From contig NC_008609.1 of NCBI RefSeq assembly GCF_000015045.1, forward strand, positions 2,613,501 to 2,677,500: DNA of 64,000 bases. The letters run 5' to 3'. A program made the position numbers and the translations under genes. Under the pieces are notes generated by a model. It did no database searches, had not been told where the DNA came from, and saw only the letters and a program-made list of their open reading frames with translations. Positions 28,046 to 49,310 of this stretch are shown here, in pieces. Position 1 is the first letter of the stretch, and each line of letters starts with the position of its first letter. Source of the DNA: Pelobacter propionicus DSM 2379 (GTDB taxonomy: Bacteria; Desulfobacterota; Desulfuromonadia; Geobacterales; Pseudopelobacteraceae).

Positions 28046-28250
28046 GTGCAGTGTGCAGTGTGCAGTGGGCAGTGGTCAGTGGACAGTGGACAGTGGACAG
28101 TGGACAGTGGACAGTGGGCAGCGGGCAGCGGGCAGGAGGCGGCGACTCCCTGTTCCCTGTTCCCTGTTCCCTGTTCCCTGTTCCCTGTTCCCTGTTCCCT
28201 GTTCCCTGTTCACTGTTCACTGTTCACTGCCTGTTCTCTGTTCCCTGCCT
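28046..28250. repeat. Two abutting heptamer tandem arrays between epsI and the exosortase gene
   Basis: The left half has GTGCAGT x3, GGGCAGT, GGTCAGT, GGACAGT x5 and GGGCAGC x2, ending in GGGCAGGAGGCGGCGACTCCC. The right half has TGTTCCC in eight perfect copies (28151-28206), then TGTTCAC x3 and degenerate units. The right half reaches into the exosortase 3' end, so its last residues ('GREQRTGSEQ') are repeat-encoded. Confidence 0.9.
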
Positions 28251-29083
28251 TTTAACAGTGCCCCCAGGGAAACCAGCAACAGCATGGCCAGGCCGAACAC
28301 CGCCAGGCCGGCGAATTCGTGAAAGAACCCCTCCGCGGCCCGCGCCCCCATGTACTGGGCCAAAAAGCCGGTCACGATCACCCGGCTGGCATTGGTGACA
28401 ATGGCGATGGGAATCGCCCCACCAACCAGAACCCAGCGTTTCCAGGGTGCAATGCGCAGGAAGAAGGCCAAAGCCACGGCCAGGGCCAACAGGGAGATCA
28501 GCGAGCGTATGCCGCTGCAGGCATCGGCGACCTCCAGGGTGGTGGCGGGAAACATGATGATGTTCCCCTCCCGCAGCACGCTGACACCGGCAATCTTGAG
28601 GGTCGCCACCGAAACCCTGGTCACGAAGAGTTTCAGGGGAAAGGCGACGGCATCGTAGACGATGTAGGGGATCGGCACCATGAAGAGCAAGTAGCCGAGT
28701 GGCAGGGCCATGACCCTGAAGGGAGCAGTTCCAAAGAGGAACAGCACCAGCCCGGCCAGGACGACGACCAGGGATGAACGCATGGTGAAGTACTCCGTAC
28801 CCAGCCAGCCAAGAATCAGCTGCGCCAGACCGAACAGCAGCACCGCCACGCCCCAGTTCCAGGGCACGACCGGGGCACGCCCCAGTTCATCGCGGCGCAG
28901 GTACAGGAAATAGCCGGCGATCAGCGGCACCAGAAAGCCGTGGGAGTAGTTTTCGTCCTGCATCCACTGCTGGACCATATCAGGAACGACACGGTAGTAC
29001 GCGGCGACCAGCAGCGGGACGATCAGCAGCAAGCGTATCCGGTTCCTGGCAAGGGCCTCGGTGAAAGTGATGGTAGGGGGCAT
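28217..29083 (-). CDS. xrtA: Exosortase A (XrtA/EpsH) transpeptidase
   Basis: This 288-residue integral membrane protein of about eight helices is the sorting enzyme for PEP-CTERM proteins. The three catalytic residues are in place: Cys in 'ADACSGIRSLISLLALAVAL', Arg in 'IPIAIVTNASRVIVTG' and His in 'EGFFHEFAGLAVF'. The N-terminal 'DENYSHGFLVPLIAGYFLY' is the other conserved exosortase block. I take the ATG at 29083 as the start, giving 'MPPTITFTEAL'; the frame is open 50 residues further without family-like sequence. PrsK/PrsR, EpsI and the TyrKin/chain-length genes nearby fit exosortase class A. The last residues come from the heptamer repeat and are probably dispensable. Confidence 0.92.
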   Translation of the reverse strand: MPPTITFTEALARNRIRLLLIVPLLVAAYYRVVPDMVQQWMQDENYSHGFLVPLIAGYFLYLRRDELGRAPVVPWNWGVAVLLFGLAQLILGWLGTEYFTMRSSLVVVLAGLVLFLFGTAPFRVMALPLGYLLFMVPIPYIVYDAVAFPLKLFVTRVSVATLKIAGVSVLREGNIIMFPATTLEVADACSGIRSLISLLALAVALAFFLRIAPWKRWVLVGGAIPIAIVTNASRVIVTGFLAQYMGARAAEGFFHEFAGLAVFGLAMLLLVSLGALLKGREQRTGSEQ

Positions 29084-29617
29084 TGAAATGCTGTTTCCTT
29101 GTGGACGATTGATGTACGATGCCTGCACCGGAGCGACGGGGATGCGCCTTCGCATCAACGCCCGCCCCCCGGAAACAGCCGGATGCATATCATACCGTTT
29201 TTTAAGAATATTGCAATGCCAAGCACAATCCATAAGTCATTAAAATAACAAGACATGCTATTTTTGCGTCGGAAGGGGAACACGCATGGGGCCAATGGGG
29301 ACGCGCCGCCGCAACCTGCGCACGCAGGAGTGCACCGCTCTCGACTGTCGTCCGGCAGGCAAGCATGCCTCCCCGGCTTATGACCCGCTACAAAGCAAAG
29401 TAGCGCGTGCAAAGGGATGAAGGGAGACGGCAGCCGATGGTGCCAGCCTGAAATGTAACAGCTTCTTAGTGCTGGCCGTACCCCGGTCATCCGTGGTATC
29501 TCAAAAAGAGAGGCTTCAGGTCCGGGCGATGCTCTTCGGCAGCATCCCCCCGGAGCCTCGGGACCGGGAGGCAAGGCGCCACCGGCGCGGGAGCAGAGAA
29601 GGGAAGGAGTGGAACCA
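29084..29617. other. 534-bp divergent intergenic region between xrtA and the Crp/Fnr gene
   Basis: No gene is seen. It contains a small hairpin at about 29381-29402 (CGCTAC/GTAGCG with loop aaagcaaa) and must hold the promoters for both divergent genes. I found no sigma-54 type -24/-12 pair for xrtA in the first 200 bp. Confidence 0.4.
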
Positions 29618-35544: not shown

Positions 35545-36222
35545 TCAAATCCGTTTCCTCGCTCCCCGTCGCCACGCGACCAGAGCAAATCCCGCCAACC
35601 CTGTACCCACGAGGAGCAGTGACGCCGGCTCAGGTGCCGCAATCGCCACATTCCAGGTGCCCGCAACCCAGGGATGGGATGTATCAGCCTGGCTGTCGTA
35701 GCCGTTGATGATAACCAGATCGCCCGAGAGATCGTGCCCCGGCGCAAGGTTATTCAGAGAAATCCAGGGCGGTCCGTATATCCATGCATCCGCATCCGAA
35801 ACCCTGCCGGTGGGTGGCTCGGCGACAAAATTTGATATGTACGGCTCGCCTGCACTCGTGCCGACAAAAGAACCATTCATGGTCAGAAACAGATTTGAAA
35901 AACTGTTTACGGAGAGCGACGCGCTATATTTCGTATTTCCCGCCAGCAGAGCACCGCCCCCTCCAGCCAATGACGGCCCCATGTCCTGCCACTGGCTAGG
36001 GCTGCCCCATGAATTTCCGGTGCTTTCAAACAGGTTGAAGCCGATTGACGAGTCCTGTACCCAGGAAGGAGTGGAATAGTAGGTAAGCGTCAGATTGATT
36101 CGCTGGTTTGGGGTGGCATGAACAACAGAGAGAGGGAAAAATAAGAAAAAAAAGCTGGACAGAAAAAAAATGCGAAACCCCGACAAGCCATAGCAGTTTT
36201 TCCCTGTTTCAAATAGCCACAT
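35545..36222 (-). CDS. Second secreted PEP-CTERM protein
   Basis: This 225-residue exported protein has a long signal peptide (residues about 14-36, 'FRIFFLSSFFFLFFPLSVVHA'), a beta-rich domain with 'INLTLTYYSTPSWVQDSSIG' and 'MGPSLAGGGGALLAGNTKYS', and a PEP-CTERM signal at its end. The signal is 'APEPASLLLVGTGLAGFAL' followed by 'WRRGARKRI'. The ATG at 36222 has GGAGG eight bases upstream and is preferred to the start of the open frame. Exosortase A should process it. I see no sigma-54 promoter upstream, unlike the PEP-CTERM gene at 19294. It lies 37 bp before the TTG-started wecB-like gene, so the two may be one transcript. The mature domain is not recognised. Confidence 0.85.
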   Translation of the reverse strand: MWLFETGKNCYGLSGFRIFFLSSFFFLFFPLSVVHATPNQRINLTLTYYSTPSWVQDSSIGFNLFESTGNSWGSPSQWQDMGPSLAGGGGALLAGNTKYSASLSVNSFSNLFLTMNGSFVGTSAGEPYISNFVAEPPTGRVSDADAWIYGPPWISLNNLAPGHDLSGDLVIINGYDSQADTSHPWVAGTWNVAIAAPEPASLLLVGTGLAGFALVAWRRGARKRI

Positions 36223-36527
36223 TTTTCTACCTCCGTCAGCAGAGATAGAGCAAATTAACACATACTCTAAAACAATGAAACTCAAATCTTCATAGGTTAT
36301 TTATTAGTCGTATGACACCATATACTCTCCGATCTACCAGTAGAATCGCAATAGCGACTACAATCTATTTAGAGTGAAGGCGAAATTTGACCCTACAAGC
36401 TATCTCACTGACACAGCAAGTGCACTACTTATAATTTCAGTTAATTTGATTTATTTACATAAAAACAGGACCATCTATTTATTCAATAAAGAGTCCTGCT
36501 TTATTAATGCCACCAACACAAACAAAA
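36223..36527. other. 305-bp AT-rich intergenic region
   Basis: No gene is seen. It marks the step from GC-rich to AT-rich DNA and should carry the promoter for the PEP-CTERM gene at its left end. No clear terminator for the gene at 36528-38120 was found. Confidence 0.4.
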
Positions 36528-38120
36528 CTATTTTATCAAAGTGCCTTTAAAATTCACAGGAGCCTTAATAGATGTGTCTTCACAAGTAATGAGTATACTT
36601 TCTATGTCAGAATTAGCATTTATTGTACCTCTTCCACGATGCACAGCACACTTTTGATTCTCAGGATGAGATGATATGGTTACATTATAATCAGATCCTG
36701 GCATGTAGTATTTCATAAAAGAGAAGTTTATTGTATTAGCCCTATTGTCAGAATTAACAGCAATTTCGTCTTGACCATTGTTTTTCAATGTCAAATTGCC
36801 TTTCATTAGAATAACAGTACCCTTAACTTTATATGAACTAGAAGCCAATCGAGTCATATCAACCTGAAAAACGTGTATGAGAGGCAATCTATTAGATAAA
36901 TTACTCGTATCGCCGCCAGTTGAAGCAATATATAATCTTTGCGTTGAAGGATCATATGCTGCGGAACCACCATATATATCAACACCAACAAAATCAAATG
37001 GCAGCTTCCAAACGGCATAAGGCAACACATCCCACGGCTTCTTTTGCCCAGCTTTCACCGCAATCAGATCATTAGTATCGTATGCCCACGCTTGATAGAT
37101 ATAAGGATATTGATGTGGCCCTTTTCCACCAACACCTGTTGGATCGTAACATTCGTCATTTACCGTGCCTATCAAAGCAGGATCTCCAGTAGAGCCACCA
37201 TAACAATATGGACCTAGACCGTGATATCCAAAATAAAGCAGACTTCTGCTTCCTGGAATCATCATCATTCCCTTAATCCTCGTGCTTAACGACCAATAAG
37301 CACTTGATGGCTCTCCAAGTGCAGGAGCTGGATTTCCAAGAGTTGAGTTCGTAACAGGGTAATAGAGCAAAGGAACATCTGGCACAGGGGTGACCACTCC
37401 CAAATTAGCAGGGTCAAAAGCAAAAGCCGCTGGCCCCGCCGATGTCCGGCTCACAACAGATATGCAGCCATTTCCAGTCAAAACGGGTCCCCCCAAAGCC
37501 GTTTGCATACTTTCAGGCACCAATGACATAAATCCAGAACGAAAGCTTACTCCACTTGTATCCGAACCAACTTGGAACATTCCTTTAAAATCACCAAGCG
37601 TTGAAAGATTTAGGCCTGAAGTAAAATGTGATGTAGCTACGGAGGGACTTCCAACGCCATAGTAAGAATATGATGTACCTATCAGCTTATTGTTATATAC
37701 AAGCAATCCACCTAGCTTTCCGTATGTGCCACTAATTTTTACACCACCGCTCGCCAAATTACTTATATTTCCTTCGGTAATATCAGAAAAATTTTGTAGT
37801 ACAGTGGCAACCTTAAGACTAGACAAGTTTGCACTGTTCACTGGCTCAGGAATGCTAACTTCTGACACCATTTGGTTTTGATCATGTCCAACAATAAAAA
37901 GCGACTTGTTTGTTGGATTGAAAGTAATTACCGCACTTGCATACGAGAAAGAAGATGCCCCAAACGTTCCAACTGGCAAACGAAAGGCACCAACGTAGTT
38001 TAAATTATTAGCATAAATAAGTGGATCCTCGGCAAAAACAATATCATTCGTCAAAAAACAAATAAACCCAATTAAACAAGACACAAATTTAAACTTCTTT
38101 TTACTTGTCATCAAGTTCAT
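36528..38120 (-). CDS. Secreted protein of unknown function with a C-terminal beta domain
   Basis: This 530-residue exported protein has a signal peptide ('FKFVSCLIGFICFLTNDIVFA'-like, residues 9-28). The main part has regular beta-propeller-like spacing ('LFIVGHDQNQMVSEVSIPEP', 'LLVYNNKLIGTSYSYYGVGS', 'LLYFGYHGLGPYCYGG', 'RLYIASTGGDTSNLSNRLPL'). The last 85 residues ('KGTVILMKGNLTLKNNGQDE', 'YNVTISSHPENQKCAVHRGR') look like a diverged copy of the Geobacter-type extracellular beta domain with 'LQNNGGDDL' and 'QPSGQTCTV' segments. It is not PEP-CTERM tagged. I take the ATG at 38120, eight bases after GGAG. It may recognise or process polysaccharide, but that is a guess. The gene is AT-rich like the cassette that follows. 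Confidence 0.7.
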   Translation of the reverse strand: MNLMTSKKKFKFVSCLIGFICFLTNDIVFAEDPLIYANNLNYVGAFRLPVGTFGASSFSYASAVITFNPTNKSLFIVGHDQNQMVSEVSIPEPVNSANLSSLKVATVLQNFSDITEGNISNLASGGVKISGTYGKLGGLLVYNNKLIGTSYSYYGVGSPSVATSHFTSGLNLSTLGDFKGMFQVGSDTSGVSFRSGFMSLVPESMQTALGGPVLTGNGCISVVSRTSAGPAAFAFDPANLGVVTPVPDVPLLYYPVTNSTLGNPAPALGEPSSAYWSLSTRIKGMMMIPGSRSLLYFGYHGLGPYCYGGSTGDPALIGTVNDECYDPTGVGGKGPHQYPYIYQAWAYDTNDLIAVKAGQKKPWDVLPYAVWKLPFDFVGVDIYGGSAAYDPSTQRLYIASTGGDTSNLSNRLPLIHVFQVDMTRLASSSYKVKGTVILMKGNLTLKNNGQDEIAVNSDNRANTINFSFMKYYMPGSDYNVTISSHPENQKCAVHRGRGTINANSDIESILITCEDTSIKAPVNFKGTLIK

Positions 38121-38340
38121 AGTCATACTCCTTTTTCTAAAGAGCAATTATCAACACGCTACAAAATACTAGATTTACACTCCATAGCACTACCATTATT
38201 TCAAGCATTTAGCATTAAATCAATCATTGTCGGCAATATTATAGCAAAACATTTCCATTAACATCATATTACATTCAAACACCAGAACAATAAATAACAA
38301 AACGCAAATTACATCTAGCATAATATTCATATTCATTTGT

Positions 38341-39453
38341 CTAAAATATCAATCTATCATAAACAACGGCATACTCCCTAGCCATCCTATCATTTGAGTA
38401 ATCTTGTTCAACCTTTAATCTGCCATTATATGCCAGTTTCTCGGTTTTTTCAGGATGATCCATCAGGAATATTAACTGTTCTGAAAGCTGTTGAAAATCT
38501 CCAACTGAAAACAATAAGCCAGTTTCATTATGCGACACAAGAATGCGGTTACCAGGGATATCGGATGCTACGACCGGAATATTCAGCGCCATAGCCTCCA
38601 TAACACACCGTGGTGTCCCTTCGGAAAGAGACGGCAATACAAAACAGTCAAATCCTCTCAGGAAACAAGCGGCATCAGTCCGAAATCCAGCAAAGAATAC
38701 GAGATGTTCTATAGCCAGAGCTTTTGCATGAGCCTTGAGTTGGCGACTGAAATCGCCATCTCCCACTAGAACAAGCTTGACTCTACGTCTAACTTCGGAC
38801 AATGCAGCAACTGAATTCAATAACGTAACAAGATCCTTACTCTCTACCAACCTTCCAACATAACCAATAACATACGAATCATCATCAAAACAGGTATTAG
38901 CAACAGATGAACGCACTTCATCAATATCAACACCATTTGTAATCAAGCGAATATTCCCAGTACAATATCTTTGAACATCACAACACAGTGTCTCAGATAA
39001 AGGACAAACCATATCCATAAACCTGAACAAAAAACGATCAAGTTTTTCATACAACTGAAGCTTCGTATCCTTCTCCACACTCCAACCATGGGGGGTAGTC
39101 AGAATTCTGCATCCTGCCACTTTTGCAGCTAAAATCCCTAATAAATCGGATTTATAGCCATGACCATGAATAATCTCAACTCCCTCATTCCGGGCCCAGC
39201 TTGCCAAGCGCACAGCAGCAAAAGGATTAAACTTACCCCCAGTCACAAAATCAAAAGCGTCTAAGCCACGTTCAGTTGCAGCCAAAACAACTGCAGATTG
39301 CTCCCCTTCGCGATCAACCAAGTTTACCAGAGTCGAGCGAAAGTGTCTGTCATCCATAGCTCGCATGAGCGCAAGGATCCAACGTTCTGCTCCATACAGA
39401 CCGCTACTCCCAATAAGATGAACAACATGGATCTTTTTCTTTCGTTGACTCAA
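38341..39453 (-). CDS. Family 4 glycosyltransferase
   Basis: This 370-residue retaining GT4 has an N-terminal acceptor domain ('HVVHLIGSSGLYGAERWILA', 'EGVEIIHGHGYKSDLLGILA') and a C-terminal nucleotide-sugar domain. The latter has 'IGYVGRLVESKDLVTLLNSV' and the E-x7-E motif in 'LSEGTPRCVMEAMALNIPVV'. It is the last gene of the AT-rich cassette operon, 3 bp after the acetyltransferase gene. It should add one sugar of the repeat unit on the lipid carrier; donor and acceptor are unknown. Confidence 0.88.
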   Translation of the reverse strand: MSQRKKKIHVVHLIGSSGLYGAERWILALMRAMDDRHFRSTLVNLVDREGEQSAVVLAATERGLDAFDFVTGGKFNPFAAVRLASWARNEGVEIIHGHGYKSDLLGILAAKVAGCRILTTPHGWSVEKDTKLQLYEKLDRFLFRFMDMVCPLSETLCCDVQRYCTGNIRLITNGVDIDEVRSSVANTCFDDDSYVIGYVGRLVESKDLVTLLNSVAALSEVRRRVKLVLVGDGDFSRQLKAHAKALAIEHLVFFAGFRTDAACFLRGFDCFVLPSLSEGTPRCVMEAMALNIPVVASDIPGNRILVSHNETGLLFSVGDFQQLSEQLIFLMDHPEKTEKLAYNGRLKVEQDYSNDRMAREYAVVYDRLIF

Positions 39454-39456
39454 GAG

Positions 39457-40065
39457 TTACCTCTCCCTGTCCGACACGCTTTCCGGCAGCCTGTTTTTAA
39501 GCACCTTCGCCGGATTTCCTCCCACGATGCTGAACGGGGGGACATCATTCACCACAACACTACCGGCCGCCACAATACTCTTACGCCCTATATTCGCCAT
39601 AACAACCGAACTGTTACCCAGCCAGCAATCTTCACCGATCACAATCTTCACCAGCTCCCCGCCCTGCTCCCGCATGGGAATATCCAACCGATCAAAACTA
39701 TGCTGCGTCTTCCCACTGATTATGTCCACATTGCTCCCCAACATCACGTCGTCCTCAATCCTGCATAAACCGATACAACAGTTGGTACCGATATAGACAC
39801 GCCTACCAAGCTCGATTCCGTGTTGATTGAGGCGGGTGCCAAATTCAATGCAGCAGTCGTTATGGCATTCAGCAAGAGACAGACAGTAAAATTGTCGACG
39901 CAGATAATTCCCCGGAATGCCGGGAATGAGGCTCAGCAGTTGAGAACATCCCTGAAACATCTGATCAGATTTGATGAAGCTCTCTCCAACGATCAAAACG
40001 GCATAGAGAGGCACAACCAGAATCTTGGCACTAAAATCTGCTATCACTTTGAAAAATGCTTTCAT
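39457..40065 (-). CDS. Hexapeptide-repeat O-acetyltransferase
   Basis: This 202-residue left-handed beta-helix acetyltransferase of the serine acetyltransferase/NodL type has repeats such as 'RVYIGTNCCIGLCRIEDDVM', 'GSNVDIISGKTQHSFDR' and 'IVIGEDCWLGNSSVVMANIG'. It ends in 'GSVVVNDVPPFSIVGGNPAK', the conserved cap of sugar acetyltransferases. The catalytic His is probably in 'KTQHSFDR'. It may acetylate the polysaccharide unit. It overlaps the O-antigen-ligase-like gene by ATGA and lies in the middle of the cassette operon. Confidence 0.85.
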   Translation of the reverse strand: MKAFFKVIADFSAKILVVPLYAVLIVGESFIKSDQMFQGCSQLLSLIPGIPGNYLRRQFYCLSLAECHNDCCIEFGTRLNQHGIELGRRVYIGTNCCIGLCRIEDDVMLGSNVDIISGKTQHSFDRLDIPMREQGGELVKIVIGEDCWLGNSSVVMANIGRKSIVAAGSVVVNDVPPFSIVGGNPAKVLKNRLPESVSDRER

Positions 40066-41369
40066 GCAGGATCAAGTTTCTCCTGACATATCTGCGCAAG
40101 TGAATTGTTGATTATCAACAGAAAAAAGAAGATTTCATAGGTGTTGAGGCTAAGGAACAAAGAACATACCACAAGGCCAGAAAAAGAGATCATACAAGTC
40201 TTATTGTATTGATCAATCCGTTTGGCAGTTTCATCGGACTTTTCAGCATTGCATCGAAGCAATACTCTTCGCGCATTACGATAGAATGTATATATCAGAA
40301 GGACATAGCAGACACCTGCACCAAGCCCAGACTCCGCCGCAAACTGAATGAGTGTGTTATGGGCTACCATGGGACGATGTTCGATAAATATGGGAAGTGC
40401 CGTTACAAATGAACCTAGCCCCACACCAGTGACAGGATGAGTCAGTATCATCTTCACCCCTCCGCCCCAGGCATCCAGCCTGTCAGTTGCAGAACGGTCA
40501 CCCTCATATTCTGCGATTATTTCGCTCCTGTCCTTCATGACGCTACCCGCCTGCCACTGATAGAACATGAAAGCCCCCAACAAAACAGGAATCGCCAGAA
40601 TCTTCCTTTTACTCAAGAAAAGCCCCACAAAGAGAGTCACACAAATACCAAGTAGACCACCACGGGAACCGGTAAGAAAGATTGCATGCCCCCCCAACGG
40701 GATAACTGCCCACAACAGATACCGGAGCCATTTCTTACGGACTTCCATCCCCAGGTAAAAGACAAACGGGAGTCCTGTAACAAAGAACATGGCAAAAGCA
40801 TTTTCATCGCCATAAATTGAGCCACCACCAATGCTCCTCGGTCCCATCAAGCGCCCCATGTTGAACTGGCTCCAGTTGGCGGAGAGATACTGATCATTCG
40901 CCCAGTAAGCCAAATATATGACACTCACCACCATGACGAGCGTGAGATACCGAATTTTTTTCAGATCATCGACGGTAATCGTGGCACAGAAGTAAAACAG
41001 GAACACATTGTTCATGAGCGAAAAAATCTGCTCCGGGGTACGGCCACCAGAAGCATACAAATCGACAAACGGGCCAAGCCAATAGGAAACGGCCAGAAAC
41101 ACCCAGAGGAGCAAAACATAGAGATTGAGGCGGGTCTTGAGGAGTCGAGGGGCAAGGTTTCCCTTTAATAGATCAATGCCAATCCCGGCTATAGCGAATC
41201 CTGCCACAAGAAGCGATACCCGCACCCCATCAAAAACCCACCACCAGATATATTGGGGGCCGAGCAGTGAAAGAAAATAATACGAAGAAATCCCAATCCA
41301 CGGCCTCATCAGAGCGGAAAAACCGGTTACCATAATGAGCAAAAGTAGGAGAATTTTTCCCACAGTCAC
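40062..41369 (-). CDS. O-antigen ligase/polymerase-like protein, exosortase A-associated
   Basis: This 435-residue membrane protein of about eleven helices is in the Wzy/WaaL (O-antigen ligase) superfamily. The long outer loop has 'FLTGSRGGLLGICVTLFVGL', 'RSEIIAEYEGDRSATDRLDA' and 'HPVTGVGLGSFVTALPIFIE', the last being the usual motif around the essential His ('HRPMVAHNTLIQFAAESGLG'). One branch of this family is tied to exosortase A loci as a putative O-glycosylation ligase, which suits its place. It would join polysaccharide units or transfer glycan to a protein. It overlaps both neighbours by ATGA. Confidence 0.85.
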   Translation of the reverse strand: MTVGKILLLLLIMVTGFSALMRPWIGISSYYFLSLLGPQYIWWWVFDGVRVSLLVAGFAIAGIGIDLLKGNLAPRLLKTRLNLYVLLLWVFLAVSYWLGPFVDLYASGGRTPEQIFSLMNNVFLFYFCATITVDDLKKIRYLTLVMVVSVIYLAYWANDQYLSANWSQFNMGRLMGPRSIGGGSIYGDENAFAMFFVTGLPFVFYLGMEVRKKWLRYLLWAVIPLGGHAIFLTGSRGGLLGICVTLFVGLFLSKRKILAIPVLLGAFMFYQWQAGSVMKDRSEIIAEYEGDRSATDRLDAWGGGVKMILTHPVTGVGLGSFVTALPIFIEHRPMVAHNTLIQFAAESGLGAGVCYVLLIYTFYRNARRVLLRCNAEKSDETAKRIDQYNKTCMISFSGLVVCSLFLSLNTYEIFFFLLIINNSLAQICQEKLDPA

Positions 41370-42682
41370 TTCCCTCGCTCTAGGCCAACGTCAACTGTTA
41401 CCTTTACAGGCACTCCCCTGTGGCCAAAAGAATTAACCGAACAGACCGTCAGTGAGTTCCTTCCTTTATGCAGTTTCCAGTTAAATCTTGCAGACTTTTC
41501 GCTAATCCTAAAAGCATCATCCACGGTTATCTCAAAATGAGAATAATTGGGTGTAACTGTATCCATGTATATCGGTATTGTCCTGGTTGATTTATTGGAC
41601 CGAACGAAAGAGACATGCGTCTTGTTGATATCCCAATACAGGGCGTGGGGGTGATTGATCTTTGTCATCAAAGTCAGCACTGGCGGCAACCTTCTGTCAT
41701 CCCAGAAGAGTGTAGCAACGTCGCTCCGTCGCGGATGGCCAGGAAAATATCTATTTGAAAGCCAATCATTTCTCATGTCGACATTGAAACAGCGATAGTA
41801 GTTAAATAATATCGGAATGCGGCGTTCAAACTCAGCATCGGCCCTCCGCCTTCCTTTAACTATCGTAATGCGATCGGTTGTTCGATCCATTACTGCATTA
41901 TGGATCTCGAGGACACTCAAGGGCATAGCGTCACGCTCGTACCAGATGTTGAAATCAGGATCAACGGCGACCCATTTTACATATCGGTTACTCCAAACCT
42001 CGGCAATCGCGTGCATATCGGAGGATTCATAACCGTCCTTTGTCAAGGATACGAGACGAGCCTGATGCCCGAGTGCTGATGCGACCTGAATGAAAGTCAT
42101 GGCATAGACATGGCACCAGAACCGCTTGCCATGACGAGAATGAGAAAGAATAACACCTGCATCGAACTCTCCCGGGGCGAACGCATCCGCTCCGCTCGTT
42201 CCATGCACCCATTGCCCATGAACCCAATCCAATATGGTGATTATCTGCAAGAAATCATCATCAGTCGTAACGGCGAGTTTAGACAGCCCGTATTTCTCTC
42301 TCAAAGAGGCAAGACGGGGATCCGACGATGGTTGATAGGAAAACGGATACCTACTGCGAATGAGAGGACTGTTATCATAACGACTCACCACTACGGTTTC
42401 CCCAGGGAACATACTTCCAATAACCTCTGCCAGTTTTGCGGAAGAAACGAAGCCATCAGGGAAAGTCGTTATTTTATCGGGACCAACAGGACAAGGCATA
42501 GTTATTGGCGCGGGATCATGCAGCGCAACAAGCATGCTGACACCATGGAGAGTCATACCGCGCAACAAAATCCTGGAAACTTCGAGAGGGCTTTTACTGT
42601 AATGCCAGGATATGAGCAATACCCCGATAAGCATTAAAGCTGGTACAGCCCAAAGACATCTTTTCAACACAGGACTTTTCAT
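41366..42682 (-). CDS. Membrane-anchored transglutaminase-like protein
   Basis: This 438-residue protein has an N-terminal membrane anchor (about residues 9-26) and a transglutaminase-like domain in the middle. The triad can be read: Cys in 'HGKRFWCHVYAMTFIQVASA', His in 'SSDMHAIAEVWSN' and Asp in 'VKWVAVDPDFNIWYERD'. A C-terminal Ig-like part follows ('IPIYMDTVTPNYSHFEITVD', 'VPVKVTVDVGLERGK'). Transglutaminase-like proteases of this fold can cleave or crosslink peptides. In a polysaccharide cassette it could attach or trim a protein partner of the glycan, which is speculation. It is coupled by ATGA to the neighbours on both sides. No close named family comes to mind. Confidence 0.75.
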   Translation of the reverse strand: MKSPVLKRCLWAVPALMLIGVLLISWHYSKSPLEVSRILLRGMTLHGVSMLVALHDPAPITMPCPVGPDKITTFPDGFVSSAKLAEVIGSMFPGETVVVSRYDNSPLIRSRYPFSYQPSSDPRLASLREKYGLSKLAVTTDDDFLQIITILDWVHGQWVHGTSGADAFAPGEFDAGVILSHSRHGKRFWCHVYAMTFIQVASALGHQARLVSLTKDGYESSDMHAIAEVWSNRYVKWVAVDPDFNIWYERDAMPLSVLEIHNAVMDRTTDRITIVKGRRRADAEFERRIPILFNYYRCFNVDMRNDWLSNRYFPGHPRRSDVATLFWDDRRLPPVLTLMTKINHPHALYWDINKTHVSFVRSNKSTRTIPIYMDTVTPNYSHFEITVDDAFRISEKSARFNWKLHKGRNSLTVCSVNSFGHRGVPVKVTVDVGLERGK

Positions 42683-43839
42683 CTCTTAGAGGAAAGCTCA
42701 GAAAAAATTCCTTCCGCCTGCCGAATCAACACATTCCAGTCAAATTTCCGGCGGACCCATTCCGCGGCAAAGTGTCCCATAACTCTTAATATTTCGTCAT
42801 CGGAAAGCAATTGCGTCAAAGTATCTGCGATGGCTTCCGGGCTTTCAGCGTCCACCAGCATTCCGGTATAACCCTGGATCATGGTTTCGGCCGTACCACC
42901 CGACATACCGGCAACAACCGGTTTACCACATGACTGCGCTTCAACCAGCACCATGCCAAACCCCTCAAAGTCTCCGTCAACCTCTCGATTAGCCAGAACA
43001 AACAGATCACACTGTTGATAACAGGCAAGCATAGTTGCGTCGTCAACTTTTCCGAGAAGTTGCACATAATCGCCAAGACCATGTGAAGTAACAAGAGATT
43101 CCAAGTAACCTAGCTCTTCCCCATCACCAACGATAGAATATAGAACATTGGGAATACTTTGACGTATACGCTCCATGGCCAATATCACATGATCATGTCC
43201 CTTTCGTTTTTGCAACCTTCCGACCGTCAGGACAACCTTCCTCCCACTCCAACCATATTTTCGACTGATTTCTTCATTTCGATTTGCAGGAGTGAAATAA
43301 GAGGTATCAACCCCCGGGTGCATGATATGAACGGTATCAGACAGTCCCGTATATTTGACAAAGGAGCGATGGGTATTGTTGCTATTTACAACGATACGAT
43401 GTGCATTTGCATAAACCAGTTGAGAGAGGAGTTTGTATTGCCTACTACTATGATAGGTAGGCAATTCCTCCCCGTGAACATAACAAAGATAGGGGATGCC
43501 GAGCCATTTCCATGCAAGCCAGCCCAATAGCCCCTCCGGCAGACCACGACCACAATGAATTACAGAAATATGTTTGAGCTTTACCGTTAAGTGCAGAAGC
43601 TTTATTAGTTTCAGGTACTGTACAATTGCAGAAAAAGACAACAAGCCCCAGCTTGAAAAAGCTAAAGGCCAGCGGATACAACATAGACAATGCTGTAAAT
43701 CAAATTCGGTCGCAAAAGCATCTTTTCCAGCAGCAATAATATAGGATTCATAGTCGAGCCTAGAATATATCTCCCAAAACCAACGACCACTGCCACCAAT
43801 TTTTGGAGGAAAAATCTCTGAAATCAATAATGTTTTCAT
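42679..43839 (-). CDS. Family 4 glycosyltransferase
   Basis: This 386-residue GT4 starts 'LISEIFPPKIGGSGRWFWEI' (Gly-rich acceptor loop) and has 'IPYLCYVHGEELPTYHSSRQ', 'VVLTVGRLQKRKGHDHVILA' (donor domain start) and the E-x7-E motif in 'EGFGMVLVEAQSCGKPVVAG'. The 'GGTAETMIQGYTGMLVDAES' segment is typical of PimB/WcaL-like GT4 enzymes. It overlaps the neighbouring genes by ATGA on each side and belongs to the same operon. The sugar it transfers is unknown. Confidence 0.88.
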   Translation of the reverse strand: MKTLLISEIFPPKIGGSGRWFWEIYSRLDYESYIIAAGKDAFATEFDLQHCLCCIRWPLAFSSWGLLSFSAIVQYLKLIKLLHLTVKLKHISVIHCGRGLPEGLLGWLAWKWLGIPYLCYVHGEELPTYHSSRQYKLLSQLVYANAHRIVVNSNNTHRSFVKYTGLSDTVHIMHPGVDTSYFTPANRNEEISRKYGWSGRKVVLTVGRLQKRKGHDHVILAMERIRQSIPNVLYSIVGDGEELGYLESLVTSHGLGDYVQLLGKVDDATMLACYQQCDLFVLANREVDGDFEGFGMVLVEAQSCGKPVVAGMSGGTAETMIQGYTGMLVDAESPEAIADTLTQLLSDDEILRVMGHFAAEWVRRKFDWNVLIRQAEGIFSELSSKR

Positions 43840-45440
43840 ACTGTAGCAACTTTAAAAAAATCTTTGGCCATATCAATTACATTCGAATAACGATTACCAG
43901 GACTGGGGTTCAAGGCTTTTCTTACAACAGGAGAAAATTCACCTAATTTTTCAGGAATGTATCCCTGATCCCATTGTTGACGTCGTGTTTTAAACTGATC
44001 AATAGTATTAACATCATCATCTACATATGAAGCCAATAAAGCACCAATAGAATAGACATCGGATGCACAGTTCGCTCCACACCCATCAAAAATCTCTGGA
44101 GCATATGTTTGAATAGATGAAATTGCTTTTTTTTCCTTAAGCTCATCGGTCGCCCATCTATCAACCGCACAGCAGTAGCTATTCAAAAGACTACGAACAT
44201 TATTAATATTTATAAGACCTTGATACGGTTCAAAACCAAACCAAGCTAAATGACAACAGGAACTGTCTGCATCAAAATACAGATTATCATTTCTAATTTT
44301 ATTATGAGCAATCATATTCCGGTGCATATCCGCAATACTTGCGTAAATTGATTTAAAAATTTTACCAACAGAAATATTATTCAATTGAAGCTCTTTACAT
44401 TCTCTAATATTGGGCATAAATTTCCAATTTGCATCAATAAAGCGCTCAGATATGTTGTTTGTTTTATTAATCGATATCAACTGTAAAGGACTTTTTATTT
44501 GCCATGTTTTTACAGAATTAAATCTGCTCTCAATTTCATCAATACGCCATCCCAATTTTAAATACGAATCCAACAAATAAAAAGCAATATTTTCTCCATT
44601 TATATTTTCTCCTTCGAATACAAACTCATTACCCCACCGTATGGGAGCAATAATCTTTGGTAAACAAGAAGATCTATCTCTGACAAAAGAAGGTAGGCGA
44701 CTTATGTCATACTTAATGGCGTTCAGAAATTGTCTTAATTTGCCATAGCCACCACCTTCTCCCAAAAAATCGCGTGAAGTTGTCATGCTTCCTTTTGCAT
44801 ATGCTCCTTGCAGACCGATATTTTGGACATAGCTCGGGGTCATACAAATTATCGGGTAATTCTTCAAGCGAGACCAGTGGGTATAAGCCGTATCATAAGC
44901 TATCCCCTCATCTCGGAATGGCCCGACATCCTCGTATACTTTCCGGGGAATCAGCCAGTTCAACGCAGGTTGTTTCCATTTCAGTAGATAGGTTCTTCCA
45001 TTCAAACGCTCAATTGAATGCTCACGCCTGAAAGGCATATTCAAGGCTGAAAATATTCCATTGCGCTCATCGGCAATAAAATCATTGTAGGCGCCTGACA
45101 ACCTAGAAAACCAGTCGCGATGGTAAACCACATCATCATCAACATTTACATAGAAAGGAGCATCATTATATTCTTGGCAAACCATTGAAAATGCATGCTC
45201 TTGACCTGCATTAGGTCCACGATTGATGTGATTTCTAACAACCCTGACTCTTGAATCACTACGAAGCACCTTATCAAAAAAATCAGTCATTCGAGAATCA
45301 GTTGAACAGTCATCATAAATCACAAGTTCAACGCAGCTTGGTAAATTAGATGACAGAATACTAGAAATACTTTTAAATATATATAAAAAATCATAGGATT
45401 CAGAACCAGCCCACGTTTTCATAACTATTGGAATTTTCAT
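43836..45440 (-). CDS. Family 2 glycosyltransferase fused to a protein-kinase-like (pseudokinase) domain
   Basis: This 534-residue two-part protein carries a GT2 at residues 1-260: 'LVIYDDCSTDSRM' (nucleotide binding), 'PFYVNVDDDVVYHRDWFSRL' (DxD metal site at 100-103) and 'NWLIPRKVYEDVGPF'. Residues about 345-530 follow a protein kinase C-lobe: 'ADMHRNMIAHNKIRNDNLYF' in place of the HRD/catalytic loop, 'CCHLAWFGFEPY' in place of DFG, 'TYAPEIFDGCGANCASDVYS' (the APE motif and the SDVYS helix F start) and 'VRKALNPSPGNRYS' (the terminal Arg motif). The catalytic Asp reads Lys, the metal Asp of DFG reads Trp, and no Gly-rich loop or ion-pair Lys is evident, so it looks like a pseudokinase. It is AT-rich and coupled to the GT4 gene by ATGA. 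Confidence 0.8.
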   Translation of the reverse strand: MKIPIVMKTWAGSESYDFLYIFKSISSILSSNLPSCVELVIYDDCSTDSRMTDFFDKVLRSDSRVRVVRNHINRGPNAGQEHAFSMVCQEYNDAPFYVNVDDDVVYHRDWFSRLSGAYNDFIADERNGIFSALNMPFRREHSIERLNGRTYLLKWKQPALNWLIPRKVYEDVGPFRDEGIAYDTAYTHWSRLKNYPIICMTPSYVQNIGLQGAYAKGSMTTSRDFLGEGGGYGKLRQFLNAIKYDISRLPSFVRDRSSCLPKIIAPIRWGNEFVFEGENINGENIAFYLLDSYLKLGWRIDEIESRFNSVKTWQIKSPLQLISINKTNNISERFIDANWKFMPNIRECKELQLNNISVGKIFKSIYASIADMHRNMIAHNKIRNDNLYFDADSSCCHLAWFGFEPYQGLININNVRSLLNSYCCAVDRWATDELKEKKAISSIQTYAPEIFDGCGANCASDVYSIGALLASYVDDDVNTIDQFKTRRQQWDQGYIPEKLGEFSPVVRKALNPSPGNRYSNVIDMAKDFFKVATV

Positions 45441-45485
45441 TCAACACACCAGCCTATAATACTTCACGATTTAAAATTTAATATT

Positions 45486-46958
45486 TTAGATAAATTTCCG
45501 CATTGCAGCATAAATGTTTTTTATAACTATAACTTCTGGTTGTTTTGTAGCAAAGATAAACGCAATCAACAGTATTGGAAAAAGAACGATTAAACATATC
45601 TCTAAAATAATATAATATAATTGATTAGCTATATATGTGTTTTGCTTTATTGCAACCAATGAAACTGCCATTAAAACTACCATTACAAGCCTTGACCACT
45701 CAATATTTACACAATTATACTTTCGGTAGACTATATAACCTCCAATACTAAAACCGAAATAAGTACCAACAGTGGCCCAAGCAGCCCCAAAAGCACCCCA
45801 TTTTGGAACAAGTAGACAATTCAATCCAACGTTGTATATCAGCGTCAGCATGTAATTTATAGTAAATAAGTGCGTTTTTTTTGATAGATTAACACCCACG
45901 CGTACAAAAGTATGCAAAGCATAACCCCAGACGCCCAACGAAATTATTGGAATATATTCGTGCGCAGTAAAGTAGGAAGGTGCAGCAAAAATCTTCATAA
46001 CAAGATCGGACATAACTGCTAAAATGAGAAGAGCATAAGCCAATATTGTCATGAAATAGGTGCATATTTTGCCGTATTGGTAGGAGGCATCGGGGTATTT
46101 AGCTATTTCGTAGATAGAACTTGACTCCCAAATCCGTACAAATGAACTCATAAATACAGTATTGAGCATAAAAGGAAACTGATATGCCAGCGAATAAAGA
46201 CCAACATCCTCCATTGAGGCGAAAAACTTGATAAAAAATCTATCTAAGTTATGCATGGCTGCCGCAGCCAACACAGTCGGAACAAGAGGAAGTGAAAATT
46301 TGAGCATTGGAATTATCACCTTAAAATCAATGACAAGGCCATTCTTAAAAGCTACGAATGCATACAAGCCTACATCAAAAATAAAGGCAACCAATAAATT
46401 TCCTACCAACATTCCAGTAACACCAAGATCTCTGAACACAACTAAATATAAATTCAGTGACGACTGGAACACAACTTGAACAGTATTAATTACAATGTAT
46501 TGCACTGAGTATTTATTAACTGTTAAATATGAATCAGCAACACTTCTAATTATATTGAGCAATATGGTAGCAAATGCAAGTTTAAAGTAGAGTACATTTA
46601 CCCCATTTCCTAAAATGAATTCTGAGATTTGTTTACTAAAAGGAAAAATGCCAAGACCAAAAAAAACAGTAGCAAGCAAGGAAAAACAAGCGCCTGTAGC
46701 CATAACCGTGCGCCTGAAGCAAACATCCGTACTGTCGTTATAAAATCTCACAATAGCAGAACTGAATCCCAACGCACAGAGTATACGTAACAATTCAACA
46801 GAACTATCCAAAATAGAGATGATTCCGTAATCCTGTTGTCCTAAGCAACGGGTGAAGAGGGGCAGCATCCCTAATCGTATTGCAGCGGCAATCCCCCATC
46901 CAAGCATATATATCAAGCTATGTTTGCTGATGTCGCAGAGTGAATTTTTTAATGACAT
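45486..46958 (-). CDS. Wzx-type polysaccharide flippase
   Basis: This 490-residue protein with about 14 membrane helices is in the MATE/MOP flippase superfamily. The N-terminal 'LIYMLGWGIAAAIRLGMLPL' followed by 'TRCLGQQDYGIISILDSSVE' is a typical RfbX/Wzx start. Other pieces are 'FSLPLVPTVLAAAAMHNLDR' and 'ISLGVWGYALHTFVRVGVNL'. It should turn the lipid-linked repeat unit to the periplasmic side for polymerisation. It is the most AT-rich long gene of the window. It lies between a GT4 gene (13 bp) and the GT2-pseudokinase gene (45 bp). Confidence 0.88.
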   Translation of the reverse strand: MSLKNSLCDISKHSLIYMLGWGIAAAIRLGMLPLFTRCLGQQDYGIISILDSSVELLRILCALGFSSAIVRFYNDSTDVCFRRTVMATGACFSLLATVFFGLGIFPFSKQISEFILGNGVNVLYFKLAFATILLNIIRSVADSYLTVNKYSVQYIVINTVQVVFQSSLNLYLVVFRDLGVTGMLVGNLLVAFIFDVGLYAFVAFKNGLVIDFKVIIPMLKFSLPLVPTVLAAAAMHNLDRFFIKFFASMEDVGLYSLAYQFPFMLNTVFMSSFVRIWESSSIYEIAKYPDASYQYGKICTYFMTILAYALLILAVMSDLVMKIFAAPSYFTAHEYIPIISLGVWGYALHTFVRVGVNLSKKTHLFTINYMLTLIYNVGLNCLLVPKWGAFGAAWATVGTYFGFSIGGYIVYRKYNCVNIEWSRLVMVVLMAVSLVAIKQNTYIANQLYYIILEICLIVLFPILLIAFIFATKQPEVIVIKNIYAAMRKFI

Positions 46959-46971
46959 ATTTACTTATAGC

Positions 46972-48033
46972 CTATCGTTCAGAGTAAAGAACGTTACAAT
47001 ACAACTTATTGTAGGACTCGAAAAAAGCCGCGTTACTAAAATGCGTTTGCGCACACCTCTCTGCTTTTGATTGCAGCTTCGCGTAGTTGACAATCATATC
47101 ATCCAGTGCCTGGACAAGCTTATCAACCTGTGGTTCGAAAACCACTCCGCATCTTTCACTAACAATTACATCAGCAATACCTACTCTCGATGAGGCAAGT
47201 ACTGGCCTTCCAGTAGCCAAGCTCTCGACAGCTGAATTGGGACAAGACTTTGTGTTTTTTGCAGTAGTGAATGGTACGATAGCTGCATGGCTTTCCTGAT
47301 AGAATCGGCTCATATCGTTCAGGTCATTATGAATCACAGTGACGTTAGTCACGCCAAGTTCTGCTATCCACTGCTTCAGCAACTCTATTGTATTTCCACG
47401 CTTACGCCACAAAAGGACAAACTTAATGTTGTCTCTCGCTTTTGCCGCTTCCAGCATTAGGCGCACTCCCCGCGACTCCATATATTCCACAGCAAAAGGA
47501 CTACTGGCAAAAACAACCCGGAAGCGGTCCTTGATTGGGGGAGGCGCAACGGCTCTAAACACAGAGAGATCAGTTCCTGGATAGATGACTGTGACTTTCT
47601 CTGGGGGCAGACCAACACTAAGGAGGTGATCGCGATCCCGAACTGACTCCACCACGATCTTACGCACCTTTGCATAGTGGTCGACAGACAGCACATTATC
47701 AACCGAGATGGCAGTCAAGATCATTGGCTTATTACCACGCATTTTCAGATAGTGATAACAGTCGATACCGTGAAACACGTGGATGAGTTGAAAATTTCTC
47801 GCCGCAAGCTGAGCCCAAAACCTAAGCGAAGGCAATAAATTGGCAGGAAAAGCGAAATACCCTTGTGATGGGGAACGCAAAAAACCCCCATCAGGGGAAG
47901 TTCCAATAACACAACTATCCCGGAAATACCGATGCAGCGAGAATACCTCCTTGGAAATGCCCTCCCGGTGAGGTTCTATGGCACCACATAAATACAGGAT
48001 CCTACCTATATTTTCTGACACAATACGATCCAC
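46972..48033 (-). CDS. Family 4 glycosyltransferase
   Basis: This 353-residue GT4 has the N-terminal 'ILYLCGAIEPHREGISKEVF', an acceptor part with 'ARNFQLIHVFHGIDCYHYLK', the donor domain 'FRVVFASSPFAVEYMESRGV' and the E-x7-E region 'NSAVESLATGRPVLASSRVG'. Its start lies 27 bp inside the methyltransferase gene. It is the second gene of the cassette operon. Donor and acceptor sugars are unknown. Confidence 0.85.
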   Translation of the reverse strand: MDRIVSENIGRILYLCGAIEPHREGISKEVFSLHRYFRDSCVIGTSPDGGFLRSPSQGYFAFPANLLPSLRFWAQLAARNFQLIHVFHGIDCYHYLKMRGNKPMILTAISVDNVLSVDHYAKVRKIVVESVRDRDHLLSVGLPPEKVTVIYPGTDLSVFRAVAPPPIKDRFRVVFASSPFAVEYMESRGVRLMLEAAKARDNIKFVLLWRKRGNTIELLKQWIAELGVTNVTVIHNDLNDMSRFYQESHAAIVPFTTAKNTKSCPNSAVESLATGRPVLASSRVGIADVIVSERCGVVFEPQVDKLVQALDDMIVNYAKLQSKAERCAQTHFSNAAFFESYNKLYCNVLYSER

Positions 48034-48770
48034 TCAAGGGGTTGACCGATTTTCGCAGCCTCAACTAATTTCATCAAACGGTATGCCAGTTTTTCGGAAC
48101 GTGGCCCGATCAGTATCTGTATTTTGCTGAGCAGTGAATAACAGCGTTGTACCGCGATATACTCGACAATCCTGAATTGATTCTGTTTCAATTCTTGCTC
48201 AAGCTGTTGAAAATCATATAGTTCATCGTAAATAGGATATTCATCGACTGTGGCATTTGCGCGAAGCGGCTCAGAAACCTGACGGTTTATTGCATCGAAT
48301 ATGAGAAAACCGTTTGGTTCAAGATGCTGATGTATCTGGTTGTAGATCCGATTTCTGTCTTCTTTATGAAAGTGCCGGATGAATCTGAATGAGTATGCAA
48401 GTTGAAAAATATCCTTAAATGGCATGTCAAAGGCATCACCGGCAACAGATTTCCAGTTTTCTGCAAGCCCGGAGGCAGACAACCTTTTTTGCGCCTGTTC
48501 GAGCATATTTACATTGAAGTCCATGATAGTGCCATGCGTCTGACGACACGATGCTCCAATATCTACAGTCAGACGCGCCGGTCCAGGCGCAACTTCCAGA
48601 ACACTTGTGATTCGGTGCTTTGTTATGGCTTCGACCACGAAACTGACTTGCGCTTCGTGCAGAATTCTTCCGATGGCTGAAGAGAACCTGTCTTCAATAT
48701 AAGAGTCAGAGACCTTGTTTTCGGAGTAGGCTTTTTTCAACTGCTCAATATGGTCATCATCGTATGTCAC
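48006..48770 (-). CDS. Class I SAM-dependent methyltransferase
   Basis: This 254-residue methyltransferase has motif I 'ITSVLEVAPGPARLTVDIGA' (GxGxG-like), motif II around 'GTIMDFNVNMLEQAQKRLSA', the post-II acid 'GDAFDMPFKDIFQLAYSFRF' and motif III 'HLEPNGFLIFDAINRQVSEP'. It is the first gene of the AT-rich operon and could methylate a sugar of the repeat unit. The substrate is not known. The start at 48770 follows a CGGAGG-type signal. Confidence 0.85.
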   Translation of the reverse strand: MTYDDDHIEQLKKAYSENKVSDSYIEDRFSSAIGRILHEAQVSFVVEAITKHRITSVLEVAPGPARLTVDIGASCRQTHGTIMDFNVNMLEQAQKRLSASGLAENWKSVAGDAFDMPFKDIFQLAYSFRFIRHFHKEDRNRIYNQIHQHLEPNGFLIFDAINRQVSEPLRANATVDEYPIYDELYDFQQLEQELKQNQFRIVEYIAVQRCYSLLSKIQILIGPRSEKLAYRLMKLVEAAKIGQPLEWIVLCQKI

Positions 48771-48924
48771 GCTACCTCCGCAAAATCAATTAGATAAGTA
48801 TGACTGCTAATACACATTATTCATCATTCCCCAGACGCAAAATATCTCTCTGCCCCGTTTCTGACTGATATCCATCAATACGCCCCTGCTGTTCCCCTGC
48901 AGTACTCATAACAACCCCACTGTT

Positions 48925-48953
48925 CATGGTCTTTAGCAGCGTCACCGATATCC
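48925..48953 (-). pseudogene. Short remnant of a GT4 gene
   Basis: 29 bp that match the neighbouring GT4 gene at 49634-49662 in 26 positions, including 19 identical bases in a row. The match is the 'ISVTLLEAMASG' coding segment; here it would read 'ISVTLLKTMNSG'. The rest of 48771-49025 shows no gene. It is probably a decayed piece of a duplicated glycosyltransferase. Confidence 0.5.
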
Positions 48954-49025
48954 TCCTGGCAGACCATTACACCCCTGGCATCCACAAGCAGTTGCAGTTC
49001 ACGCGCCAACAACAACCGCATCCTG

Positions 49026-49310
49026 TCAGTCACAATTCCACCCGCTGTCAAGCGCAAGCCGTACAAAGGGATCTGAATCATCCGCTGCCACGACGATATC
49101 AATCTTCTGTTCACCGAGAGTCTCGTAGAGTTTCATTTTGATGGCTCTCTTGGTATCTGCTGTTATCTTGCCGGACATGAGCAGCAAATCGATATCTCCC
49201 CCCTTTTTGGTATCATCGACGCGAGAACCGAACAGATACACGCGGGCATTGCTGTCGAAAAATCTCACCGTTGTCAGAATTGCGGCCCGCTCATAATCCT
49301 TGAGCCTCAT
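49026..49310 (-). CDS. MNT-type minimal nucleotidyltransferase, apparently solitary
   Basis: This 94-residue nucleotidyltransferase has the GSxxxD...GDxDLLL pattern 'VYLFGSRVDDTKKGGDIDLL' and the strand with the third carboxylate in 'EQKIDIVVAADDSDPF'. The ATG at 49310 has a GAGG site upstream. Most such proteins are paired with a HEPN or HI0074-type partner directly downstream; here the downstream DNA holds only the GT4 remnant and short frames. The partner was probably lost. Its role may be that of an orphan antitoxin. Confidence 0.75.
   Translation of the reverse strand: MRLKDYERAAILTTVRFFDSNARVYLFGSRVDDTKKGGDIDLLLMSGKITADTKRAIKMKLYETLGEQKIDIVVAADDSDPFVRLALDSGWNCD

Follow-up and report, generated by a model that had tools for sequence, protein, structure and literature searches.

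What might a protein-kinase-like domain do at the C-terminus of a glycosyltransferase when its catalytic residues are gone? This question is raised by a gene of Pelobacter propionicus DSM 2379, which we analyzed within a stretch of 64,000 nucleotides (the window). An initial annotation, made from the letters of the DNA, had described a GT2 glycosyltransferase and a kinase-like domain in one frame. Both domains are real and lie in one frame, which is open over 534 codons and has a full-length homologue in another genome. In our best explanation, to which we give a probability of about 0.6, the GT2 half would be an intact, working glycosyltransferase of an XrtA/PEP-CTERM-linked Wzx/Wzy-type exopolysaccharide pathway, and the pseudokinase would serve in non-catalytic docking or in allosteric regulation of the fused GT2.

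Organization of the Fusion Gene

The gene runs uninterrupted from an ATG at 45440 to a stop at 43836 on the minus strand, encodes 534 aa and is laid out as follows.

43836..45440 (-), GT2-pseudokinase fusion gene, an open frame with a full-length homologue (L009)
44751..45440 (-), GT2 domain, residues ~1-230, with DDCS at 43-46, DDD at 101-103 and YDTAY at 182-186
44655..44750 (-), linker, residues ~231-262, basic and poorly conserved (17% identity)
43839..44654 (-), pseudokinase domain, residues ~263-534

Residues 23-118 matched Glycos_transf_2 of Pfam (E 2.5e-8; 34.5 bits against a cut-off of 23.3), and the DDD at 101-103 (the DxD) is the same in all four GT2 homologues aligned, so that profile and DxD alike place the N-terminal half among normal GT2 enzymes, as had been claimed. 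Pfam found no domain in the 534-aa protein beyond the GT2 and the kinase-like half. The maximum KD19 was 1.1 and a long hydrophobic segment is absent; the fusion protein is therefore probably cytoplasmic or membrane-peripheral.

The homologue lies on a contig assigned to a Nitrospirae MAG (L009, 5995-7608, plus strand, 537 aa). It is 39% identical to the window fusion over residues 2-524 with the same domain order end to end, and the halves differ in identity (GT2 57%, pseudokinase 26%). The two genomes with the fusion are assigned to different phyla.

Fold and Active Site of the Kinase-Like Half

Pkinase of Pfam matched residues 352-473 of the window fusion (E 6e-4, or 4.6e-5 when the C-terminal part was used by itself), the scores of 19.7-23.4 bits lying under the gathering cut-off of PF00069. 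The C-terminal part of L009 alone reached 41.1 bits against the cut-off of 31.7 and covered nearly the whole profile (15-260); because this homologue clears the cut-off, the resemblance to kinases is not a matter of chance. A profile built from the two pseudokinases only retrieved canonical bacterial kinases (L013 at 6e-11) and 185 distinct PDB sequences at E <=0.01, with kinases accounting for all of the 60 matches listed. When both fusions were aligned by residue with 16 kinase domains drawn from 15 loci, 16/16 fitted without conflict at H379, K381 (Asp), N386, W400 (Asp), G402, E449, D461 and R517. At E <=10, the Pfam matches of the window fusion and L009 besides GT2 were Pkinase and PK_Tyr_Ser-Thr only; the HipA, Fam20, SelO and WaaP profiles, which had been put forward for comparison, matched neither protein at that threshold. 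The PADLOC matches PD-T4-6 and MkoA over the kinase-like region were taken as general kinase similarity.

An AF2 model of the pseudokinase (pLDDT 75.6, pTM 0.80) had the standard bilobal layout, and among the top Foldseek chains listed it matched kinases at Z 18-20, PknB at Z 18-19; in a listing of top chains only, the absence of WbdD and MviN carries no weight. Because canonical kinases sat in the 17-sequence input alignment, which biases the result toward a kinase fold, the model indicates that the sequence is compatible with that fold and is not independent proof of it. The run from sequence without an alignment gave pLDDT 33, and that model was not used. The proposed fold check was passed to this extent, as the C-terminal domain both models (with kinases in the AF2 alignment) and aligns as a kinase. 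As judged by these comparisons, the C-terminal half is a complete Hanks-type protein-kinase-like domain.

Its motifs are IRWG (267-270), HNKIRNDN (379-386), WFG (400-402), APE (447-449), SDVYS (460-464) and R517, and the landmarks of a kinase C-lobe noted at the outset, namely the HRD-like loop, APE, SDVYS and the terminal Arg, were thereby all located. The Gly-rich loop, described as not visible, is in position yet degenerate, with the canonical G replaced by W269 (W in L009). The VAIK Lys is Y288 (F in L009) and the C-helix Glu is N308 (Q in L009); the reported changes of the HRD Asp to Lys and the DFG Asp to Trp were confirmed as K381 and W400, with K and W again in L009. The fold-defining residues H379, N386, G402, E449, D461 and R517 are retained in both fusions, and K381, R383 and R268 are identical in L009. 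Neither protein thus has the VAIK Lys, C-helix Glu, HRD Asp and DFG Asp that mark an active Ser/Thr kinase, and both combine a kinase-like fold with a loss of catalytic motifs shared across homologues, which marks a pseudokinase. Every key phosphotransfer residue is replaced in the same or a similar way in both fusions, and phosphotransfer by this domain is unlikely.

Genomic Context

The fusion belongs to a glycan cassette at ~36-49 kb of the window, and the GC content of 0.35-0.50, against 0.56 for the whole window, agrees with its earlier description as AT-rich and suggests horizontal acquisition. The most AT-rich pair in it consists of the fusion (GC 0.366) and the flippase (GC 0.362). The surroundings of the cassette (36000-49000) have a GC content of 0.56-0.60. 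The annotated neighbors are as follows.

40062..41369 (-), Wzy/O-ligase-like membrane protein of exosortase-A-associated type, Wzy_C 5.5e-15
41366..42682 (-), transglutaminase-core protein, 438 aa, Transglut_core 9.9e-8
42679..43839 (-), GT4 glycosyltransferase, ATG with a 4-bp overlap of the fusion stop codon
45486..46958 (-), Wzx-type polysaccharide flippase directly upstream of the fusion, Polysacc_synt_3 4.3e-17
46972..48033 (-), GT4-type glycosyltransferase
48006..48770 (-), SAM methyltransferase

The Wzy/O-ligase-like protein matched TIGR03097 at 8.8e-38, under the cut-off of that model, and the transglutaminase-core protein between it and the GT4 had no NCBIfam match. The frame 28217-29233 reads as an exosortase, followed by an EpsI-like frame, by inspection of the sequence rather than by profile. 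On the evidence of its sequence, the locus is of the XrtA/PEP-CTERM exopolysaccharide type. Homologues of the flippase in L009 and L010 are 33-34% identical; it adjoins the fusion in the window and stands several genes apart in L009. The cassette also holds a small nucleotidyltransferase-like protein (49026-49310, minus strand, 94 aa) with a weak PADLOC match to PDC-S09 (1.4e-4). A protein of 539 aa (36528-38147, minus strand) had no Pfam match at 0.01; over its part 41-117 it shares 41% identity with a partial frame that ends L010, likewise near a Wzy-like gene.

Relatives With and Without the Tail

A phylum search yielded a GT2 relative (L007, 44% identity) from which the tail is absent, and this relative opened the way to a motif scan across 85,000 species, which returned three loci: L009, L010 (Desulfofervidaceae) and L011 (a deltaproteobacterial MAG). 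The GT2 proteins of L010 and L011 are 43-44% identical to the GT2 domain of the window fusion and have no kinase tail; in a four-sequence alignment, the L011 protein stops at the end point of the window fusion's linker. L011 also carries homologues of the methyltransferase (36%), of one GT4 (33%) and of the second GT4, 42679..43839 (51%). Because these three accompany a tail-less GT2, a related cassette exists, by homology, both with and without the pseudokinase.

The same fusion had been suggested as worth seeking elsewhere, and one was found, L009. Searches of the relatives, the class, the phylum and Nitrospirota left only the window and L009 as carriers, and the phylum and order of the L011 genome and the order and class of the L009 genome added none; these taxon samples overlap and make up a small fraction of all species. 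The C-terminal half as a direct query found nothing close in relatives, class and genome contigs, the contig scans having been made with short peptide patterns that divergent members would escape. Plasmid, phage and viral-contig sequences held no member of the fusion. L013 and L014, weak matches from the Nitrospirota search, were rejected as relatives of the fusion since they are canonical kinases.

Conservation of the Altered Active Site

Two segments of the pseudo-active site were identical at 17/25 positions between the window fusion and L009, against 26% over the whole pseudokinase domain. In a circular-shift test, 17/25 was reached by 1 of 269 placements, the unshifted one, and the 268 other shifts fell short. 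Canonical kinase pairs of similar divergence gave 0.62 for the same segments against 0.70 here, a comparable excess; conservation at the altered site therefore roughly matches that of a functional one. With two members known, the comparison is that of a single pair, and within that pair no part of the pseudokinase domain is better conserved than the pseudo-active site. Such conservation supports a function either for the altered pocket itself or for the structure that it takes when filled. Because the altered site is the most conserved part and L009 carries the same fusion, the tail is probably a maintained pseudokinase with a dedicated task in regulation or docking, and neither the relic of an enzyme nor a product of merged genes.

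Possible Role of the Pseudokinase

First, we favor a tail that would perform no phosphorylation. The aromatic residues W269, Y288/F and W400 probably plug the nucleotide pocket, as in the MviN pseudokinase, and the domain would either place the GT2 beside the neighboring flippase or glycosyltransferases or gate its activity. The flippase has no special claim as the docking partner, because it lies several genes away in L009. Docking would probably be direct rather than via phospho-threonine, because this genome is without FHA domains (no match to PF00498; three in the genome of L009).

The closest working analogue, by comparison of domains, is the MviN/MurJ pseudokinase of Mycobacterium tuberculosis, a member of the ActPs3 family that works with PknB and FhaA (PMC12599244). 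It too is of Hanks type and shares a chain with a protein of envelope-glycan assembly; its catalytic motifs are all lost, and bulky aromatics occupy the ATP site. However, its partner domain is a flippase rather than a glycosyltransferase, its motifs (VALT, Lsidhpsr, Y--) differ from those found here (IAFY, HNKIRNDN, WFG), which leaves our domain outside ActPs3, and it uses FhaA, whereas no FHA protein was found in this genome. The CP1 pseudokinases (Leptospira Q8F6Y5: Hnqigpss, WLG) likewise open the catalytic loop with His-Asn and replace the DFG Asp by Trp (PMC12599244), but they are all tied to COG3899 ATPase domains, which the window fusion lacks and which set it apart from CP1, and the listed examples have neither Lys at the HRD Asp position nor a glycosyltransferase. 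EcpK of Myxococcus xanthus is a suggested scaffold pseudokinase in Wzx/Wzy exopolysaccharide synthesis (PMC12004946); in contrast, it has a bacterial tyrosine-kinase (Walker) fold and is a separate protein whose partner is the PCP protein EpsV.

Second, the main rival to direct docking or allostery is a ligand sensor, an unlikely though serious reading, in which the altered pocket would bind an anionic ligand without metal through K381, R383 and R268 and signal to the GT2, with a nucleotide, a nucleotide sugar or a lipid pyrophosphate as candidates. With these residues the pocket could be cationic and ligand-binding instead of plugged: all three are identical in L009, they belong to a domain whose pseudo-active site is its best conserved part, and cationic pockets that bind ATP without metal have been described in ULK4 and proposed for the DLHK pseudokinases (PMC12599244). 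Nevertheless, W269, Y288/F and W400 sit where a nucleotide would clash, the bulky aromatics of the MviN pocket are tied to its failure to bind ATP and Mg (PMC12599244), and R268 and R383 are common or conservative in active kinases (R in 7/16; K in 15/16). It is somewhat more doubtful that the two proteins represent a new pseudokinase family, marked by HNKIRxDN and HLAWxGxEP, whose cationic pocket would bind a glycan-assembly intermediate and gate the GT2 allosterically.

Third, a non-canonical or divergent kinase acting on a glycan or a lipid carrier, like WbdD (Escherichia coli O9a) or ORF6 (Klebsiella pneumoniae O7), is improbable. Kinases fused to glycan enzymes do terminate O-antigens (PMC3482155, PMC11231755), these two proteins are, like ours, fusions of a kinase-fold domain with glycan-assembly enzymes, GT2 modules occur in the O7 ORF6 chain (PMC11231755), and other activities are known in the pseudokinases SelO and SidJ (PMC12599244). 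Yet WbdD and O7 ORF6 are active kinases, with a methyltransferase and coiled coil and an ABC-transporter pathway, and their kinases are antibiotic-kinase-like (O7) or of WbdD type; WbdD retains the DFG Asp, and the kinase of O7 ORF6 depends on its catalytic Asp D441. The VAIK Lys, C-helix Glu, HRD Asp and DFG Asp are gone in both of our homologues, which likewise disfavors the divergent sugar kinase that had been considered initially.

The genome's only other protein-kinase match (L034, C3:3769850-3770497) is of an AAA-linked sensor type in an 1863-aa frame, with HRDINPGN (HRD intact) and DFD where DFG is expected. A switch like that of MviN, in which an active Ser/Thr kinase would phosphorylate the pseudokinase and so recruit an FHA protein, has the precedent of MviN itself (PMC12599244) and could draw on this HRD-intact kinase, but it is slightly less probable still, given the type and DFD of that kinase and the lack of an FHA match here against the three in the L009 genome. 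Finally, a frame artificially merged from two genes, or the relic of a kinase in decay, as the AT-rich cassette and the mere two examples could suggest, is scarcely credible, since L009 holds the fusion full-length with the same domain order and lesions, both frames are open, and the pseudo-active site is the best conserved segment.

Significance

One chain that combines GT2 modules with an active, unrelated kinase was already known in K. pneumoniae O7 ORF6 (PMC11231755), from which the present fusion differs. In line with the initial annotation, which knew of no such protein, a GT2-pseudokinase fusion was not found in the open-access literature searched, which is weak evidence of absence, and the main text of a 2025 review of bacterial pseudokinases has 0 occurrences of glycosyltransferases. 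Bacterial pseudokinases are largely uncharacterized, and one that is conserved and shares a chain with the enzyme presumed to be its client offers a directly testable case, for which the tail-less GT2 homologues are natural controls. A GT2 fusion of this kind would extend to a glycosyltransferase the pattern of MviN and EcpK, in which dead kinases take part in envelope glycan assembly.
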